NCBI RefSeq assembly: GCF_000313565.1
Contig: NZ_HE578927.1
Span: 1 to 33,053, forward strand
Direction: 5' to 3'
Length of the DNA: 33,053 nucleotides
Source: Dielma fastidiosa
GTDB lineage: Bacteria > Bacillota_I > Bacilli_A > Erysipelotrichales > Erysipelotrichaceae
A model generated the notes under the pieces. The model saw nothing but the letters and a program-made list of their open reading frames with translations. It did no database searches and was not told the origin of the DNA. This document shows, in pieces, positions 3,103 through 13,005 of the stretch. Position numbers and translations under genes: made by a program. Position 1 is the first letter of the stretch. Every line of letters begins with the position of its first letter.

Positions 3103-5469
3103 TTACTGCTGATGATTCATTTCCGCAAATTCGCGGATTTTCCATGCATTGCCGATCTTCTCGAAGCCATCTTCTTTTACTACCACCAAGGTTGGTACCT
3201 GCATAATACCATACTGTCTTGCCAATGCCTCCTGCTCCTCAGCATCAACCTTCTCATAGCTCAGCTTTGATTGTTCCAATGACTGATAAGCAGCCTTACA
3301 GTTCGGACAAGTCTTAGTCGTAAACAGCAGCAGCTTGCCTTCCGCTTTTTCACATGGCGTCTGAACATCACTCAATGCCTGTTTCCCCTTTAACACAGAG
3401 TGACCGATATCATATACCTTACGTTCGCTGAATTCCTGTGTCTTGCCCTCATTCCAGTTTTGTACCGGCCGGTAATATCCGGTAATACGGCTGTAAACCT
3501 CCGTCTTTTCACCGCAGTGCGGACATTCATAAACCTCACCGCTGATATAGCCGTGATTGCGGCAGATTGAATAAGTTGGCGAAATAGTATAATAAGGCAG
3601 TTTATAATTCTCTGAAATCTTGCGCACCAAGGCCGCCGCAGCCTTCCAATCCGGCAGCTTTTCACCTAGGAACGCATGGAAAACAGTGCCTGATGTATAC
3701 AGTGTCTGCAGCTCGTCCTGAATATCCAGCGCTTCAAAAATATCCTCTGTATAACCAACCGGCAGATGTGAGCTATTGGTATAATAAGGCTTCGCGTCAT
3801 TTTCAGTAGCCGTGATAATATCCGGATATAATTCTTTATCATGCTTCGCTAAACGATACGTTGTTGATTCTGCCGGTGTTGCCTCAAGGTTGTATAAATC
3901 GCCGTATTCTTCCTGATAAATAACCAGACGCTCACGCATGTGATTTAAAACCTCCTGCGCAAATTTCTGTGTCTTCGGATGGGTTAAATCCGCACGCAGC
4001 CAGTTCGCATTTAAGCCCACCTCATTCATGCCGATTAAACCGATCGTCGAGAAATGGTTCTCAAAGCTTCCCAAATAGCGCTTCGTATACGGATATAAGC
4101 CTTCATTCAGCAATTTGGTAATGATTGTACGCTTTACGCTCAGTGAGCGGGCGGCAATATCCATCAAATGATCCAAACGTTTATAGAAATCATTTTCATC
4201 CTTAGCCAGATAAGCGATACGCGGCATATTGATCGTTACCACACCGACAGAACCGGTACTTTCACCGCTGCCGAAGAAGCCGCCGGATTTACGGCGCAGT
4301 TCTCTTAAATCAAGACGCAGACGGCAGCACATACTGCGCACATCGCTTGGTTCCATATCACTGTTTACATAATTGGAGAAATAAGGTGTCCCGTATTTTG
4401 ATGTCATTTCAAATAACAGCTTGTTGTTTTCTGTCTCTGACCAGTCAAAATCACGAGTGATTGAATAAGTTGGAATCGGATATTGGAAGCCGCGGCCATT
4501 CGCATCACCCTCAATCATGATTTCAATGAATGCCTTATTAATCATATCCATTTCTTTCTGACAATCTTTATATTTAAAATCCATTTCCTTGCCGCCGATC
4601 AAGGCTTGCTGTTCAGCAAGATCCTTTGGTACTGTCCAGTCCAAGGTAATATTAGAGAATGGTGCCTGAGTTCCCCAGCGGCTTGGTGTATTTACCCCAT
4701 AAACAAATGATTCAATACATTTCTTTACATTCTCATAGCTCAAATCATCAACTTTTACATACGGTGCTAAATAAGTATCAAAGGATGAGAAAGCCTGTGC
4801 GCCTGCCCATTCATTCTGCATAATGCCCAAAAAATTAACCATCTGATTGCATAAGGAAGCCAGATGTCTTGCCGGCTTTGATGTGATTTTACCGGTAACG
4901 CCGCCCAGTCCTTCACAGATCAATTGACGCAGTGACCAGCCTGCGCAGTAGCCTGTCAGCATCGATAAATCATGGAGATGCATCTCACCGCTGCGATGCG
5001 CATTGGCAATCTCCTCATCATAGATTTCTGAAAGCCAATAGTTAGCGGTAATCGCGCCGGAATTGCTTAAGATCAAACCGCCGACGGAATAAGTGACCGT
5101 TGAATTTTCCTTAACCCGCCAGTCTGAAACCTTCACATAGCTGTCTACTAATTCCTTATAGTCAAGAATCGTTGATTTCATGTTGCGGATTTTCTGACGC
5201 TGTTTACGATAAAGAATATAAGCCTTTGCTACATCGGCATAACCCGCCTGAATCAAAACCGCCTCAACGCTGTCCTGAATCGCTTCTACCTGAATCTTAT
5301 CATCAACGATCTTATCTTCAAAATCGGCCGCTACATGCAGTGCCAGCATTTCGATGACACTTGGATGATACTGTTTTTTCTGTGCGTCAAACGCCTTTGT
5401 GATGGCAGCACAAATCTTCTTTAAATCAAACTCCGCAATACTGCCGTCCCTCTTAATTACCTGATACAT
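3103..5469 (-). CDS. nrdD: Class III (anaerobic) ribonucleotide reductase with fused redoxin domain
   Basis: This oxygen-sensitive glycyl-radical enzyme makes deoxyribonucleotides for DNA synthesis without oxygen. Order of parts in 788 residues: ATP-cone at about 1-90; catalytic barrel with cysteines C175 (GYCAGW) and C381/C382; zinc site C636-x2-H639 and C649-x2-C652; glycyl-radical motif RITGYY with G664; then a C-terminal glutaredoxin/thioredoxin-like domain (711-788) with active site C721-P-N-C724. The fused redoxin suggests reduction by a thiol system rather than formate, as known for redoxin-dependent NrdD subgroups. I start it at ATG 5469 (MYQVIKRDG), because the longer open frame upstream overlaps the preceding gene and lacks the family sequence. 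It follows the nrdG fusion gene by 25 bp in one operon. Confidence 0.95.
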   Translation of the reverse strand: MYQVIKRDGSIAEFDLKKICAAITKAFDAQKKQYHPSVIEMLALHVAADFEDKIVDDKIQVEAIQDSVEAVLIQAGYADVAKAYILYRKQRQKIRNMKSTILDYKELVDSYVKVSDWRVKENSTVTYSVGGLILSNSGAITANYWLSEIYDEEIANAHRSGEMHLHDLSMLTGYCAGWSLRQLICEGLGGVTGKITSKPARHLASLCNQMVNFLGIMQNEWAGAQAFSSFDTYLAPYVKVDDLSYENVKKCIESFVYGVNTPSRWGTQAPFSNITLDWTVPKDLAEQQALIGGKEMDFKYKDCQKEMDMINKAFIEIMIEGDANGRGFQYPIPTYSITRDFDWSETENNKLLFEMTSKYGTPYFSNYVNSDMEPSDVRSMCCRLRLDLRELRRKSGGFFGSGESTGSVGVVTINMPRIAYLAKDENDFYKRLDHLMDIAARSLSVKRTIITKLLNEGLYPYTKRYLGSFENHFSTIGLIGMNEVGLNANWLRADLTHPKTQKFAQEVLNHMRERLVIYQEEYGDLYNLEATPAESTTYRLAKHDKELYPDIITATENDAKPYYTNSSHLPVGYTEDIFEALDIQDELQTLYTSGTVFHAFLGEKLPDWKAAAALVRKISENYKLPYYTISPTYSICRNHGYISGEVYECPHCGEKTEVYSRITGYYRPVQNWNEGKTQEFSERKVYDIGHSVLKGKQALSDVQTPCEKAEGKLLLFTTKTCPNCKAAYQSLEQSKLSYEKVDAEEQEALARQYGIMQVPTLVVVKEDGFEKIGNAWKIREFAEMNHQQ

Positions 5470-5494
5470 AGTTATTTCCCTTTCCTTTCCGCTT

Positions 5495-6628
5495 CTATAA
5501 CCCACGCACCTGCGTGTTAGGTACAAATTTTCTGGCTGCTTCACACAGCTTCTGCATTTCATCAGCATCATATCCCTGCAAACCCTTTTGAATGACGCAT
5601 TCACTGTCTACAAAGGCTTGCAGATAATACGCTTTAGCGCCCTTCAGCCATTCTGCCGCGGCGCTGATTTCCTTTTCACTGTGAAAATCCCTGACCACCG
5701 TAGTTCTGAATTCATAATCAAGATCACCGTGAAGCAAAAAGTCAACGCTTTCCTCAATCGGTGATAAATCAAAGCTTTCAAGACCAATCGTCTTCGCGTA
5801 ATGAGCTTTGTCATTTTTTATATCCATCGCAACATAGTCAATTAAGCCAGCCGCTGCATATTTCTTTAAAAGCTTAGGATAGCTCCCGTTGGTGTCTAAT
5901 TTAACCTTATATCCTAACCCCTTCAATTTATATAAGAAAGGCTCCAGCTCTTCATGCAGCAACGGCTCGCCGCCGCTGATACAGATGCCGTCCAACGTTT
6001 TCTGCCGCTGTTTCAAAAAGCTTTCTAAATCATCACTGTTGATTTCAGAAAGATCCTCCGGCAGAAAAACCAGATCCGCGTTCTGACAGAAAGGACAGCG
6101 GAAGTTGCAGCCGCCGGTAAACAGCGTTGATGCCAGCTTAGAGGGATAATCCAATAAGGTAAGCTTCTGCATGCCGAAGATTTTCAGCTGATTGGTTGGC
6201 TGAGTGAGAGCCGACGCGTTGGCAATCAGCTTTGCCTGTACGTTCTCTGCCAGCTGCAGCTCTTCTTCACTTAAGCCTTGGGTTATTTTCTCCCACCATT
6301 CCTGACGAACGAGATAGATTTCCGGAATGATTTTCTTCGTCTTATCACACGTATATAAATGTTTAATGCGCTTATCTTTTTCATTTGCCGCGGTTGTGAT
6401 ATAGCCTTCCGCCTCTAAGCGCTGAATGCCCTTGGTAACCGTTCCTTTATCAAAGCCGCCCATCAAAGACAGATCAGACATTGTAATGCCTTCATGTTCA
6501 TAAATCAGAATCAAAAACTGAAGCTGACCGGCGCCAATTTGATAGAGATCTAAATTTTTATCATAATATTTCTGTGTATACCGATATAAAATCGAGGTAT
6601 TCATCAGCAGACTATTGCGTTTTTCCAT
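5495..6628 (-). CDS. MarR-type regulator fused to NrdG-type radical SAM activase
   Basis: The 377 residues hold two proteins in one. Residues 1 to about 140 form a MarR-family winged helix (recognition region about 50-75; wing with the conserved DxR, D85-x-R87). Residues about 150-377 match the NrdG2-type activase, with the opening QKLTLLDYPSKLASTLFTGG, the radical SAM cluster C174-x3-C178-x2-C181 and the GGE motif at 219-221. The activase half should use a 4Fe-4S cluster and S-adenosylmethionine to put the glycyl radical on NrdD, encoded 25 bp downstream. The DNA-binding half plausibly controls its own operon, since two MarR-like operators flank the promoter. Codons are open throughout, with no frameshift at the joint. 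Start ATG 6628 has GGAGG four bases upstream. Confidence 0.9.
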   Translation of the reverse strand: MEKRNSLLMNTSILYRYTQKYYDKNLDLYQIGAGQLQFLILIYEHEGITMSDLSLMGGFDKGTVTKGIQRLEAEGYITTAANEKDKRIKHLYTCDKTKKIIPEIYLVRQEWWEKITQGLSEEELQLAENVQAKLIANASALTQPTNQLKIFGMQKLTLLDYPSKLASTLFTGGCNFRCPFCQNADLVFLPEDLSEINSDDLESFLKQRQKTLDGICISGGEPLLHEELEPFLYKLKGLGYKVKLDTNGSYPKLLKKYAAAGLIDYVAMDIKNDKAHYAKTIGLESFDLSPIEESVDFLLHGDLDYEFRTTVVRDFHSEKEISAAAEWLKGAKAYYLQAFVDSECVIQKGLQGYDADEMQKLCEAARKFVPNTQVRGL

Positions 6629-6810: not shown

Positions 6811-8262
6811 TTATTGCCACAGCTTTGCGGCATCATAGTAATTCATAGCCGCCTCTAAATAATTGAGCTGGCTGCATTCCCGAATAATCTGCAGATGAAT
6901 CAACTGAAATAAATGAGCGGTTTGAACCGCAAATTGATCCCGTTCTCCTTTTTCCAACGCTGCTGACGCTTTCATACACAGCTTGTAGATTTCATACTCA
7001 GGCTGGCTTTTTTCTTTGCTGATAAAGCCCGGTAAACGTCTGCCGACAATGAAATTCTTACGAATCATCACATAGATCGTCTTCAGTGTTTCATATTGAA
7101 TATGATCGATAATAAATTGCAGCAGAATACCCGCGATAAAACGGTGATCAAAGGGATCATGCCAGGCTGTCTCCAATTCCCTCTGCAGCTTTAAACAATC
7201 GTCTGGCAGCACTGCTGAAACCACCGAAGCTGCCACCCCTTCTACACTCAGCGCCAGTAATTCTAAGCTGTCTAACAGCAGGCGGATATTGCCGGCAATT
7301 AATTCCGGTTTAATGGGGGCCTGTTTCAGTTCATCCAGATCCATCATCACTTCAATTCCTGAATGCGGGGCTGCCTTTAGTGCGCCTAAGACCTGCAGCT
7401 CTTTGATTGCCTTAAGTGTCGTATCGATACTGACCCCATAGATGCTCTGAAGCTCCTTATGTGAAGGCAGGCGGCTGCCCTTTGGATATTGTCCAATGGC
7501 AATTCGACCTAAAATATCGACGCAAATACTTGAATACCGTTCTTCGCTTTTGCGCACCTTCTGTTCCAAATCCGCGCAGCCGACACAAAAAATAGAATCC
7601 GGCTTTACTTGATAAGGTGGTACCTCAGCATCGTTATCCAAGCCGTAAACAGCAGACATATCATCAAATTTAACACTGGCCGGATCACCGCCGTTTTTGA
7701 CCGTTTTTAAGAACAGCGTTAACTGCCGGCGATAAGTTTCACGAATGGCAGCATCACTGTGCAGCGATTCCAGCTCTGAAAAGCCTAAGCTGTCAACAAC
7801 TCTCAGCATCAGCTCATTGCCGTTGCGGGCAATCAGATAACGCCAAAATTGATTAGACAGCTGCCAAAAACGCTCTTTTGAAACCGTCTCCATACTTACA
7901 ATGATGGTCCTTAAATACGCCCAGTCCGCATCCTGACATAGCTTTAGACCCTGATCAATCAACGGATAACAAAGCAGTACCCCTGTCCGTAAAGCGTCCA
8001 CAGCCGCGATAGCATCTGCCTGCTTTAAAGCCAGCTGCGATGTTTTCTGCATTGACTGATAGATGATGATCGGCCGTTTGCGCTTCTGAGTCGCGATCAG
8101 ACCTTCCTGAGCTAAAAGTTCCAGGGAACGCCGCACCGTCTTTTCAGAAGTGTTGAATTCCTCACACAGCTTAGCTCTTGAGGGCAGCTGACTGCCCGCC
8201 GGCAAGATACCGCAGATTATTTTATTTTTCAAATTCACATAAACCTTTTCATACAAGATCAT
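6811..8262 (-). CDS. Tandem GntR-like regulator (two winged-helix halves)
   Basis: The 483 residues look like two GntR-type proteins joined end to end. The first winged helix is at 3-68 (SQLPSRAKLCEEFNTSEKTV...LLAQEGLI) and the second at about 243-307 (SRLPSHKELQSIYGVSIDTT...LQVLGALK). Each is followed by roughly 165 residues of helical sequence that I cannot assign firmly; FCD-like is possible. One chain would therefore carry two DNA-binding heads. It is the last gene of a three-gene unit, starting 28 bp after the hybrid kinase stop. GAGGG lies about ten bases before ATG 8262. No receiver domain is present, so control by the upstream kinase would have to be indirect. Target and ligand are unknown. 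Confidence 0.85.
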   Translation of the reverse strand: MILYEKVYVNLKNKIICGILPAGSQLPSRAKLCEEFNTSEKTVRRSLELLAQEGLIATQKRKRPIIIYQSMQKTSQLALKQADAIAAVDALRTGVLLCYPLIDQGLKLCQDADWAYLRTIIVSMETVSKERFWQLSNQFWRYLIARNGNELMLRVVDSLGFSELESLHSDAAIRETYRRQLTLFLKTVKNGGDPASVKFDDMSAVYGLDNDAEVPPYQVKPDSIFCVGCADLEQKVRKSEERYSSICVDILGRIAIGQYPKGSRLPSHKELQSIYGVSIDTTLKAIKELQVLGALKAAPHSGIEVMMDLDELKQAPIKPELIAGNIRLLLDSLELLALSVEGVAASVVSAVLPDDCLKLQRELETAWHDPFDHRFIAGILLQFIIDHIQYETLKTIYVMIRKNFIVGRRLPGFISKEKSQPEYEIYKLCMKASAALEKGERDQFAVQTAHLFQLIHLQIIRECSQLNYLEAAMNYYDAAKLWQ

Positions 8263-8290: not shown

Positions 8291-10825
8291 TTAGTGCCGA
8301 TGTTTTTGAACTTGCCCATACTGAGTGCAGATATCAGCTAATACAAAAGGCTTGCCGATATGCGCATCCATGCCGCAGTCCAAACATTTTTGAATATCCT
8401 CCTGGAAAGAATTAGCCGTCATCGCAATAATGATTACCTGTCCTGCATCGTGCCGATCTAACGCGCGAATCACTTCGGTTGCACTGCAGCCATCCATGAT
8501 CGGCATCTGAACATCCATCAGAATCAGATCATAATAACCCTCTTCTGATGCGGTAAAGCGTTCAACAGCGATCTGCCCGTTAGTCGCTGTATCAATAACC
8601 GCTCCTGCAAACCTCAGCAGTTCAACTGCAATTTCAAGATTAATTTCATTATCTTCAACAATCAAAACACGCTTACCGCTTAATATTGAGGCTGTCTCAC
8701 TGTCATCGGCTGGCTGAGCATCGGCTTGACCATCATCCAACAGCTGCACGATATCCTTAGTAAAAGCCGGCAAGAAAAGCACCTTGGCTATTTTTAATGC
8801 TGAAGCTCTGGCTTCCAATTCATCCTTATCATATCCCATTAAGATTAATTCAGGCATTCTTATTCTATCACTGTCATAAAGTAACTGCAACTTTTGCGTA
8901 AACTCATTGCTTTCTGCCAAGGATACAAAACACGCATCAACCGACGCCGCAGTATTGCAAAGCGCTAATGCCTGTTCGGCGGTTTTGGTTGCTACAGCTT
9001 CAAAGCCTAAGTGATGCAGCAGATCCGCGAGCGCTTGGCGCTGCGGCTGATAATCGTCTATGACTAAAACACGGCCGCTGAATGGCTGAGCCTGTTCCTC
9101 ACGCTCATAAGCAAACGGCAGATTAACCTTGAAGCAGCTTCCCTTGCCAACCTCACTATCTAAGGTGATGGTACCGCCCATCATCTGCACAAATTGCTTG
9201 GTAATCGGCAGACCTAAGCCAGTTCCCCCATACTGACGGGCAACGCCTGAGGTTTCCTGAATAAAGGCTTCAAAGATTTTATCAAAATTTTCCCTGGCGA
9301 TGCCGCAGCCTGTATCGCTGACCTTAAAAGTCAGCCAAAGACGATCATCATCACTTAATGACGTTTCAATACTTAAAACGATCGTACCGCCGGTCGGTGT
9401 GAATTTCAATGCGTTAGAAAGCAGATTATTTAAAATTTGATTCAGTCGCAAGGAATCTCCAATCAGCACTTCATTGACTGCCTGCGCGCAATAAGCATTA
9501 AAATGTATACCCTTTTCACATGCCTGAATATAGAACACGGTTGTAATTCCCTTCAGTAATTCTCTGAAATTAAACGCCGCCTGATGCAGTTCAATTTTAC
9601 CTCTTTCAATCTTAGACATATCCAAAATATCATTAATTAAAACTAACAGATGATTCGAAGAATAACTGATTTTATCAAGACAGTTTTTCATTCGTTCCGG
9701 CTGATCAATATAACGCTGTCCCACCTCGGTCATACCGATAATGCCGTTCAGCGGAGTACGAATCTCATGCGACATCTGAGAAAGAAAATCACTCTTTGCC
9801 TGATTCGCCTGTTCCGCCCGTTCCTTGGCTTCCATTAATAGCTGCTGATGGCGCTGTTCAATCTGCCGGTAAAGCATGAAAAATACAAAAATAATTATCA
9901 TGACCGTCACAAAAATGCCGGCAGCCGCAAACAGCATCAGAAGACTGAGCCGCGACACCTGCGAATTCACTGTCTCATAAGCCATACTGGTCATCATATA
10001 CCATTCGGTATCAGGAATTGGCGCATAATACAGATATTCATGTTCATCACCCAACCGTAAAGAAAGCATCCCGCTTTGACCGTTCTCAATCTGACTCTGC
10101 AGTGATGTCAGCTCATAGCCAGCATCAAATACTGCCTGCTGCTTAAAGATTGAAAACAGATTGCTGCCGCTTAAGAACGGATTCACATCCTCACCGCGGA
10201 TAATAAAATTACCTTCACGGTTAATTACATTGGTATAAGAATTAGTGCCTTTCTGATTCAGTGCCACCTTCTCACTGATTTTCATTGTATTAATTCCGAC
10301 AATGACGGCCACTAATTGTTCATTTTTATAGGCTTTGGGAACAATCGAAGTCCCCAGCAGAATCACATCATCATCCCAGATCGTTTCATCAATTGAAATA
10401 ATTTCCTTGCTGCCATTCAACAGTTCATTCAGCGCTCTGATTTTAGAAATCGCCGGCTGTGACCCCTGTGGTGTATAAGCCATCCCCTGTGAATTGATCA
10501 CCGCTACATAGGAAAAATCATTATCCGTCTGAATTTGTTTCAAAAACGACTTCAGCGCTTCCTCATCGCTTAATTCACTCATCGACAGCGCATTCGTCAT
10601 TGTCTTGATCTGTGCGAACTGACTTTTCATATTTGTATTAAAATGACTGCTGGTCTGTGAATTCATTTCCTGCAGATAAACCTCACTGATTTTTGACACC
10701 GTTTCCGATGCCGCTTCATTATAAGACTTTAAAGCAAATGAGCAAGCCAACACAATAAAGAGAATCAAAGTACAAATGACAAGAATAATAATCTGCTTCT
10801 CGCCCTTCATCTTATGCTTTTTCAT
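8291..10825 (-). CDS. Hybrid sensor histidine kinase with dCACHE-like sensor and two receiver domains
   Basis: A membrane signal-transduction kinase of 844 residues. Order: transmembrane helix about 10-32; extracytoplasmic sensor of about 250 residues, dCACHE-like; second transmembrane helix 293-317; short linker; HisKA with H353 in [10 protein letters not shown]; HATPase_c with [17 protein letters not shown] and GTGLGL boxes; first receiver about 586-705; second receiver about 718-840 with acidic pair ED and phospho-acceptor D771 (LILMDVQMP). In the first receiver the acceptor position is Ser (CFVSLAES) and the conserved Lys is Leu, so it is probably not phosphorylated. No HPt or output domain is present or encoded nearby. 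It starts 21 bp after the solute-binding lipoprotein gene, AAAGGGGG upstream, which suggests the lipoprotein presents the signal. Confidence 0.93.
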
Positions 10826-10846: not shown

Positions 10847-12796
10847 TTAATCCGCATTCGCAAGATCAACGATCCTGCCTTCCAGCTCAATGATTTTCTC
10901 CTGTTCAGGATGATCGCGGGAATACTGCTTCACCATTTCCCGATAGCTCATGCCGCTTTCTTTAATCAGTGTCACATCACCCTTTGGGGTGTTTTCATCA
11001 TAGATATTCAGCATCGTATAGCCATCGCCGTTGCCCTCAAAATAACCGACCGCACCTGCCATATAATTATTTACCGCCAGCTGATAGTTCGCCTTTAAAT
11101 CAATCGGTGTACCATCCGGCAGGGAAACTGATACCATTCGGCTGCCCCGTGGTTTAGAGCTGTCAAACACATAATGCAGACCAGAAATCTGCAGGAAACG
11201 GCCATTAGGAAATTCATCATCACTATAGGTTACGCAGTTCTCCAGCATATCCCATATTGTTTGACCCGATGCTTCAATTACGATGACCTCATTTTCAAAC
11301 GGAAACAGCGCTTCTAAATCTTCGCAATATACATCACCGATATAGAGGCTGCTGCGGATATTGCCGCCGTTCACCACCGCAATCGGCGCCGCGGCCACAG
11401 AAGCGATGCAGTCAGCCAAAAAATTGCCAAGTTCGGTTTCGGTGCGCCGTACATTAAAGTTTTGAAACAGCAGATCCTGTTTCATAACGGTAAGCACGGA
11501 TAAATTATCAGCCATCGCCTGTGAACCCTCAAGATAATATTGATCCACCGCCTGCAGCAGCTCCTCATTCGTAAGTCTGCCAGCCATCCGCTGCTGAGCC
11601 GTGCTGCCCAGATACTGGACAACTCTTTCCGGAAAATTCAAATTATAAACATAACCGGAATCAATAAACGTTTCTACACCATTAGGAACCGATGTTTCAT
11701 TCGCAACATAACCACGCAGACTGGAAGCCCCCATCTGCAGATCCTTAATGATGGCATCCTGACCTTCCTGAGTAGATATCAGCGCTAAGATTCGCTTGCA
11801 TGCTTCCTGCTTTTCCTCGCTGATTGATGCATTGATGCCGACATAGCTTGACGGTGCATAAAGAATCCAAGATTCATTTCCCTCATCACTCATTAACGGC
11901 AGCATGCGGTATGAATACTGCATCGCTTTGCCTTCTTCAAAGGCTATTTGATTTTCACTCACACACTGCGCAAAAAGACTGGAATCGCCAAAAACGGCCG
12001 CCAGATTTCCCGACGCCATCCGCTCATGGGTAAGAATGCTGTTGCGCTGCTTGCTTAATGGCGCCGCATCTAAAACACCGCTGGCTACCAGCTCATCCGT
12101 CAAATCAAAGACATTATCCCAAACACCCGTTAAACGGCTGTTTTTCTCTTTGTAATCAGAAAGCCATTGAACACCCTCAACCGTACCTAAAAAATCAGGC
12201 ACCTCACCGCCGATTAAAAACAAGCCAAAATAAGTATTATAATCACTTTGAATGGCTATATTCTTATCATCATCTCCAAGACCATAGCCTTGCTGCTTTA
12301 ACTGAACAAGGGCTTCAATCAATGATTGATTGCTGTTAGGCAATTCAATGCCCGCCTGTTCAAACAAAGTCTCATTAATGATATAGCCATAATACTGCCC
12401 CGGCAGCGGCAGCTGATAATTTTTTCCTTCTACACGCAGACCCTTCATAATCGTACCATCATAGGCAGCGCTGGCGCTCAAATCGCTGATGTCAATAAGA
12501 TATTGACTGTTATCATCGGTATAAGCTTCTTTTGAGAGCACTAAATCAGGGCCATAGCCATTTTCTAAACGCCGTGATAATTCGCTTGTATACGGTGTGA
12601 TCTCACATTGCAGATCAATATCTGAATACGTTGATTCCACAAGCTCTTCCAATTGCGGAAATTTATTAGTATAAAGCACCGTTATGACGATTTTATCTGA
12701 TTTCTCCACAGTCTTTTGCTGACAGCCGCCAACCAGACAAAAACATAATAAAACCGCCAGCCCCTTCAAACATCTGTATCGATTTGATTCACGCAT
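10847..12796 (-). CDS. Lipoprotein: solute-binding domain fused to 5'-nucleotidase C-terminal domain
   Basis: A 649-residue exported lipoprotein: hydrophobic signal and lipobox VGGC with lipidated C25. Residues about 35-420 resemble an ABC family-1 solute-binding protein. Residues about 445-600 match the C-terminal domain of UshA-type 5'-nucleotidases: RRTETELGNFLAD, N475-GGNIRSS, the FPFENEV segment near 496, and GNGDGY near 590. In UshA this domain binds the nucleotide base between aromatic residues; the FPF phenylalanine and a Tyr near 575 could serve here. The catalytic metallophosphoesterase domain is absent, so binding rather than hydrolysis is expected. Start ATG 12796 is set by AAGGAGG eight bases upstream; an upstream in-frame GTG (12814) lies before that site. 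First gene of the unit, followed by the hybrid kinase. Confidence 0.9.
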   Translation of the reverse strand: MRESNRYRCLKGLAVLLCFCLVGGCQQKTVEKSDKIVITVLYTNKFPQLEELVESTYSDIDLQCEITPYTSELSRRLENGYGPDLVLSKEAYTDDNSQYLIDISDLSASAAYDGTIMKGLRVEGKNYQLPLPGQYYGYIINETLFEQAGIELPNSNQSLIEALVQLKQQGYGLGDDDKNIAIQSDYNTYFGLFLIGGEVPDFLGTVEGVQWLSDYKEKNSRLTGVWDNVFDLTDELVASGVLDAAPLSKQRNSILTHERMASGNLAAVFGDSSLFAQCVSENQIAFEEGKAMQYSYRMLPLMSDEGNESWILYAPSSYVGINASISEEKQEACKRILALISTQEGQDAIIKDLQMGASSLRGYVANETSVPNGVETFIDSGYVYNLNFPERVVQYLGSTAQQRMAGRLTNEELLQAVDQYYLEGSQAMADNLSVLTVMKQDLLFQNFNVRRTETELGNFLADCIASVAAAPIAVVNGGNIRSSLYIGDVYCEDLEALFPFENEVIVIEASGQTIWDMLENCVTYSDDEFPNGRFLQISGLHYVFDSSKPRGSRMVSVSLPDGTPIDLKANYQLAVNNYMAGAVGYFEGNGDGYTMLNIYDENTPKGDVTLIKESGMSYREMVKQYSRDHPEQEKIIELEGRIVDLANAD

Positions 12797-12809
12797 CTTG
12801 TTTTCCTCC

Positions 12810-12840
12810 TTCACTGCTTTTAAAGCAGCCAGGCAGTGAA
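12810..12840 (-). promoter_or_regulatory. Leader hairpins touching the ribosome site
   Basis: In the 5' leader, an 8-bp stem (TTCACTGC/GCAGTGAA) ends immediately before GGAGG of the lipoprotein gene. A second, mutually exclusive hairpin (CTGCTTT-T-AAAGCAG, 12814-12828) lies inside it. The alternative folds next to the Shine-Dalgarno could affect translation; this is inference. Confidence 0.45.
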
Positions 12841-12965: not shown

Positions 12966-12997
12966 GAAAAAAACCTTCTCATTAAAATGAAAAGGTT
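12966..12997 (-). terminator. Terminator after murD, end of the dcw cluster
   Basis: A stem of AACCTT-C-TCATT with AATGA-A-AAGGTT (one mismatch, 2-nt loop) is followed on the minus strand by a run of eight U. Confidence 0.85.
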
Positions 12998-13005
12998 CAA
13001 TTAGT

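Follow-up and report, generated by a model that had tools for sequence, protein, structure and literature searches.

A solute-binding lipoprotein with a 5'-nucleotidase C-terminal domain as a candidate co-receptor of an adjacent dCache hybrid kinase

Introduction

Nucleotidases such as UshA, CD73 and CpdB combine a metallophosphoesterase domain (PF00149) with a C-terminal domain (PF02872, 5NTC). The isolated C domain of CpdB is catalytically inactive, yet it contains the substrate-binding site that sets specificity (PMC7922932). In the window, by which we mean the whole stretch of 33,053 nucleotides from Dielma fastidiosa analysed here, a predicted lipoprotein differs from these enzymes in having no PF00149 domain, and a solute-binding protein (SBP) half stands in the N-terminal place. 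What could a bacterium do with the specificity domain of a nucleotidase without its enzyme? A reading made from the sequence alone had proposed a binding and sensing protein for nucleotides or nucleosides. Here we examine both halves, the nucleotide pocket, the origin of the fusion and the genes next to which such lipoproteins are encoded.

Results

Two folded halves and no catalytic domain

Features of the locus are collected in Table 1, and residue numbers throughout follow the 655-aa reading from GTG. The shorter reading is the better one: the ATG at 12796, already chosen in the sequence-only reading, has a perfect AGGAGG 8 nt upstream. The lipobox that it had recognised, LVGGC with Cys31, is also borne out, and 51 relatives have the same cysteine. 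The closest relatives of the window protein that we found are in Hungatella and Blautia, where the same architecture occurs at ~54% identity. The architecture of the window protein is thus not a chance product, and the whereabouts of its nearest relatives make horizontal transfer of the gene possible.

Table 1. Features of the lipoprotein locus, with positions in the window.
Feature	Position	Strand	Details
SBP-5NTC lipoprotein gene	10847..12796	-	649 aa from ATG; 655 aa if read from GTG 12814 (longest reading, 10847-12814)
Lipobox LVGGC, lipidated Cys31	12722..12736	-	Sequence motif; cysteine unchanged in 51 family members
Family-1 solute-binding half, residues 40-433	11516..12697	-	3quf profile match; VIA-align Z 34.2 to 4rk9
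5'-nucleotidase C-terminal domain PF02872 (5NTC), residues 451-591	11042..11464	-	E 7.5e-35; Z 23.8 to 2z1a, domain folded alone
NGGNIRSS (residues 482-489) with N482 and R487 of the pocket	11348..11371	-	Both invariant in 15 orthologs
Y584-D597 stretch: second aromatic for base stacking, seven residues more than in CD73, GNGDGY	11024..11065	-	Loop pLDDT low
Hybrid histidine kinase (HK), 844 aa: two TM helices around extracellular dCache, HisKA, HATPase_c, two REC	8291..10825	-	Domain search
dCache_1 ectodomain of HK, residues 47-277, proposed docking site	9995..10687	-	PF02743 2.2e-10
Double-GntR regulator, 483 aa, two PF00392 HTH domains, third gene of the likely operon	6811..8262	-	Domain search; recurs in L021, L022, L097, L098, L099
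Terminator-like hairpin after murD, upstream of the likely operon	12971..12998	-	12 pairs and T run; consensus match only
Terminator-like hairpin, end of double-GntR gene	6815..6832	-	7 pairs; consensus match only

The N-terminal half had been described as a family-1 solute-binding-like region, and several methods agree with this. With phmmer, residues 70-425 matched the family-1 SBP 3quf at 4.5e-6; a family profile of 11 orthologs reached the same protein at 4.5e-14, and the Hungatella and Blautia orthologs match PF13416 directly (~1e-10 and ~1e-8). An AlphaFold2 model of the whole protein, computed from a 51-sequence family alignment, had a pLDDT of 85.9 and a pTM of 0.82, and its residues 42-431 superimposed on the oligosaccharide-binding SBP 4rk9 with a Z of 34.2 (rmsd 3.4, 368 residues). 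The check suggested earlier, that PF01547 or PF13416 and PF02872 be sought in one protein, came out well for the relatives, where both kinds occur; in the window copy PF02872 was found, but no Pfam SBP model matched at E 0.1. Among the 51 family members scanned, PF02872 was detected in 36, PF13416 in 33 and PF01547 in 29.

SBPs took up the result rows of a structure search with the full model, which led us to model and search the C domain separately. Folded in this way (pLDDT 81), it matched the Thermus 5'-nucleotidase 2z1a (Z 23.8, rmsd 2.6, 200 residues), adenosine-bound CD73 4h2f (Z 22.1) and UshA (Z about 20). Both halves of the protein therefore fold in the model that had been called for, and the C-terminal part was not reassigned to another family, in agreement with its earlier description as UshA-type. 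The fold extends to about residue 650, beyond the PF02872 match. It is also the fold of SoxB (Z 17-18), and hence the fold alone is no proof of nucleotide binding.

The reported lack of a catalytic domain is likewise upheld: the window protein showed no Pfam Metallophos (PF00149) match and neither a DxH nor a GNH[DE] motif. True nucleotidases do score PF00149, as two candidates (L095 and L108) illustrate, which were rejected as family relatives on this ground. We also looked for a direct fusion of lipoprotein and kinase. All 15 long PF02872 ORFs (927-3370 aa) carried GNH[EDS], none had a kinase core or an SBP profile, and they look like ordinary nucleotidases.

The nucleotide pocket is conserved in one clade

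In CD73, Phe417 and Phe500 sandwich the base, which Asn390 also contacts, the ribose is held by Asp506, and two arginines, Arg354 and Arg395, shift when substrate binds (PMC8677862). The stacking pair of UshA is Phe429 and Phe498 (PMC7922932), while CpdB uses two tyrosines (PMC8071527). By motif alignment, R456, N482, R487, F506, Y584 and D597 of the window protein fall on nucleotide-pocket positions, from which we infer a residue-by-residue match to the CD73 numbers. Across 15 orthologs including the window protein, seven positions (R456, E459, N464, N482, R487, Y584 and D597) are invariant, position 506 is F or Y, and position 508 is N or D. In this clade the loop from Y584 to D597 is longer than in CD73 by seven residues as counted by alignment, and its model confidence is low.

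Intact pocket residues are confined to this one clade, made up of the window protein and the 14 orthologs that were checked. Some 45 paralogs have the 5NTC domain but have lost the NGGxxR and GDG motifs, and most of them retain the sensor partner described below, so the general function does not depend on the pocket. This observation lends support to an alternative in which every member uses its 5NTC domain solely for structure or docking, the single ligand goes to the SBP half, and the window clade carries its motifs as remnants of the fold; the reuse of the fold by SoxB points the same way. The same paralogs also argue against it. Because they hold the fold without the pocket motifs, seven invariant positions among orthologs with 34-55% overall identity to the window protein amount to more conservation than upkeep of the fold needs. 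We regard the purely structural explanation as rather unlikely. Binding of a nucleoside or nucleotide, as first proposed, stays plausible since the pocket residues are conserved in the window clade; it does not hold as a general role of the C domain, whose motifs are gone in most of the family. A nucleoside or nucleotide is the probable ligand of the C domain in the window clade, and elsewhere the domain is probably structural.

A FastTree phylogeny of the SBP halves (384 columns) placed 62/62 SBP+5NTC proteins together with L151 in a single clade (0.993) that excludes the other SBP-only proteins. Within it, the pocket-intact proteins are monophyletic (1.0) and branch off first, and the unity of the remainder is weakly supported (0.28). 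The tree suggests a single fusion, after which the pocket was lost in other lineages. L151 (3769-5160), a 463-aa SBP with no detectable 5NTC domain that adjoins a hybrid kinase, may have lost its C domain.

Most family members adjoin a sensor gene

We searched 299 genomes of the family of Blautia, 391 of its class, 392 of the window's phylum and 195 of the window's family, and found many SBP+5NTC lipoproteins of ~590-670 aa. From the window's own family came a single further full-length ortholog (L197), along with several paralogs that had diverged. Overall, 48/57 SBP+5NTC genes had a co-directional hybrid HK within 250 nt, whereas among the SBP-only controls drawn from these searches a co-directional HK neighbour occurred in 1/23 (L151). 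The 57 genes, picked by sequence and not by neighbours, are a sample of best hits and not a census; the true nucleotidase L095 was removed from this count, and L108 never passed the SBP profile. A 49th gene (L107) has a dCache-GGDEF-EAL neighbour instead of the kinase, and some of the 9 genes without an adjacent kinase lie at contig ends or in tandem arrays. In the window and in 14/14 Clostridia orthologs the HK gene is immediately downstream. The idea of a binding and sensing protein is strengthened on the sensing side by these counts, although it had left out the neighbouring dCache sensor, which is the defining context of the family.

The neighbourhoods also bear on whether we are dealing with an ordinary ABC-transporter SBP that has gained a C-terminal extension and feeds a permease encoded elsewhere. 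The window SBP half does share the fold of family-1 transporter SBPs, close to that of oligosaccharide-binding proteins, and some SBP genes sit apart from their permeases. But permease-like genes, found beside most SBP-only controls, are rare near SBP+5NTC genes, and no ABC permease gene is among the neighbours in the window; moreover, the SBP halves form their separate clade and the pairing with a sensor is near constant. A transporter role is therefore very improbable.

A dCache_1 match was found in 33/54 partner ectodomains. In two loci, L107 (7431-9725) and L198 (6753-9065), dCache-GGDEF-EAL proteins with 46% mutual identity take the place of the kinase beside the SBP+5NTC lipoprotein, and the GGDEF-EAL partner ectodomain is homologous to that of the window kinase (21% identity over 317 residues, 2e-22). 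Here the ectodomain appears to have been kept while the output was swapped, which is more telling than the correlation of distances. For lipoprotein versus partner ectodomain the latter reached an r of 0.90, with a partial r of 0.70 given the kinase core, compared with 0.05 for lipoprotein versus core given the ectodomain. For representatives below 45% identity only, r fell to 0.33 and the partial correlation to 0.19 (permutation p 0.035, SBP half). Given this strong drop after redundancy removal, the mirror-tree signal provides mild support for coupling between lipoprotein and ectodomain. A scheme in which the lipoprotein collects nucleotides outside the cell, or offers them to a nucleotidase that is a separate protein, and the kinase does no more than regulate its gene would suit the conserved pocket residues and the adjacency expected of a regulator and its target gene, but we give it little credence, as PF02872 was found only once in this genome, the pocket-less paralogs show the same pairing, and two loci pair with GGDEF-EAL proteins rather than transcription regulators.

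Several loci are arranged differently. In L111, L112, L114 and L173, two or three diverged SBP+5NTC genes stand in tandem around one or two kinases, and such lipoproteins may share one kinase. In L169 (7411-10659) and L170 (1342-4596), hybrid kinases of ~1083 aa lie upstream of the SBP+5NTC gene; the L170 kinase carries family-3 SBP ectodomains, so that two SBP-type sensors occur in one locus.

A likely operon of three genes

The lipoprotein gene is followed after 21 nt by the HK gene and this, after 28 nt, by the double-GntR gene. Because the two terminator-like hairpins bracket them, the three genes likely form one operon and would be co-transcribed. The same order is found in the five loci listed in Table 1, at 50-55% identity to the window for lipoprotein and HK and 40-43% for the GntR protein; in more distant orthologs the lipoprotein-kinase pair is kept and the GntR gene is gone. 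The double-GntR protein has no REC match, so the locus has no response regulator of the REC plus DNA-binding kind alongside, and the HK has REC domains of its own. An inverted repeat, TTCACTGC-N15-GCAGTGAA, lies at 12810-12840 and abuts, on the upstream side, the ribosome-binding site of the lipoprotein gene. This repeat is the sole such site in the genome, is absent from the orthologous loci, and may serve the double-GntR protein as an operator. We rejected a hairpin covering the ribosome-binding site, as it was no better than in shuffled sequences (z -0.73). A double-GntR homolog in Blautia (L093, 7839-9311) adjoins a kinase next to a diverged SBP+5NTC gene.

Discussion

Taken together, we favour a reading that makes the window protein an extracellular co-receptor within a signalling system of three components, docking on dCache and reporting its ligand to the kinase; we would give this a probability of about 0.55. 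The lipoprotein would be tethered outside the cell, where its SBP half would close on a solute, a saccharide being the likeliest guess from the fold. The 5NTC half, having no catalytic partner, would hold a nucleoside or nucleotide uncut, at least in the window clade. From the near-constant pairing we infer docking of the lipoprotein on the dCache ectodomain of the hybrid kinase encoded next to it, whose phosphorelay it would alter in a ligand-dependent way. The double-GntR protein would probably be part of the output or of autoregulation.

Docking of SBPs on receptor ectodomains is a recognised mechanism, and the receptors include kinases and c-di-GMP enzymes (PMC9602780). As in the systems reviewed there, BctC-BctE among them, in which a ligand-loaded SBP acts on the ectodomain of a transmembrane receptor, the proposed partner here is an ectodomain; no 5NTC-fused member was found in that account, whereas here one fusion family has expanded with adjacent partners. 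A clostridial SBP that binds its kinase directly is known from CuaD-CuaS-CuaR of Ruminiclostridium cellulolyticum: a lipoprotein SBP gene lies beside that of a two-TM sensor kinase and is not a transporter's SBP, and CuaD binds the kinase CuaS and sharpens sensing (PMC10384115). In the window, too, the SBP gene adjoins a co-directional kinase gene and the lipoprotein falls outside the transporter-SBP clade. Differences are evident as well. CuaD is a 410-aa SBP alone, and the window SBP is joined to a 5NTC domain; CuaS contains HAMP but no predicted ectodomain and is accompanied by a YesN/AraC regulator, unlike the window kinase, a dCache hybrid with REC domains. With UshA, CD73 and CpdB the protein shares the C-domain fold and, in the window clade, also the base-stacking, Asn, Arg and Asp residues of the pocket. 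Neither half is thus new, and SBP-kinase pairing is known, but in the open-access literature we found no description of the SBP+5NTC fusion family, its near-constant dCache pairing or its partial pocket loss.

If the co-receptor reading is true, it would offer a testable mechanism for dozens of lipoproteins labelled only as 5'-nucleotidase C-terminal or solute-binding, and would account for the signals to which many hybrid kinases in Lachnospiraceae and related bacteria respond. The pocket-intact clade, if it binds nucleosides or nucleotides, would be a candidate receptor for extracellular purines or pyrimidines. An enzyme specificity domain has apparently been reused as part of a sensor, and the loss of the pocket in sister lineages provides a built-in comparison. 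In a broader picture, which we put forward only tentatively, Clostridia and Erysipelotrichia would possess a large class of extracellular sensors that originated with the capture of a nucleotidase specificity domain by an SBP. Members of one clade would still detect nucleosides, nucleotides or dinucleotides outside the cell, perhaps together with a second solute bound by the SBP half, and a common dCache dock would let the class act on hybrid kinases or on c-di-GMP enzymes.

Next to this locus, the window holds one ORF (5495-6628, minus strand) that combines a MarR-type HTH with a radical-SAM (anaerobic NrdG-like) domain. It adjoins an anaerobic ribonucleotide reductase gene (3103-5604) whose product has a C-terminal glutaredoxin-like domain.
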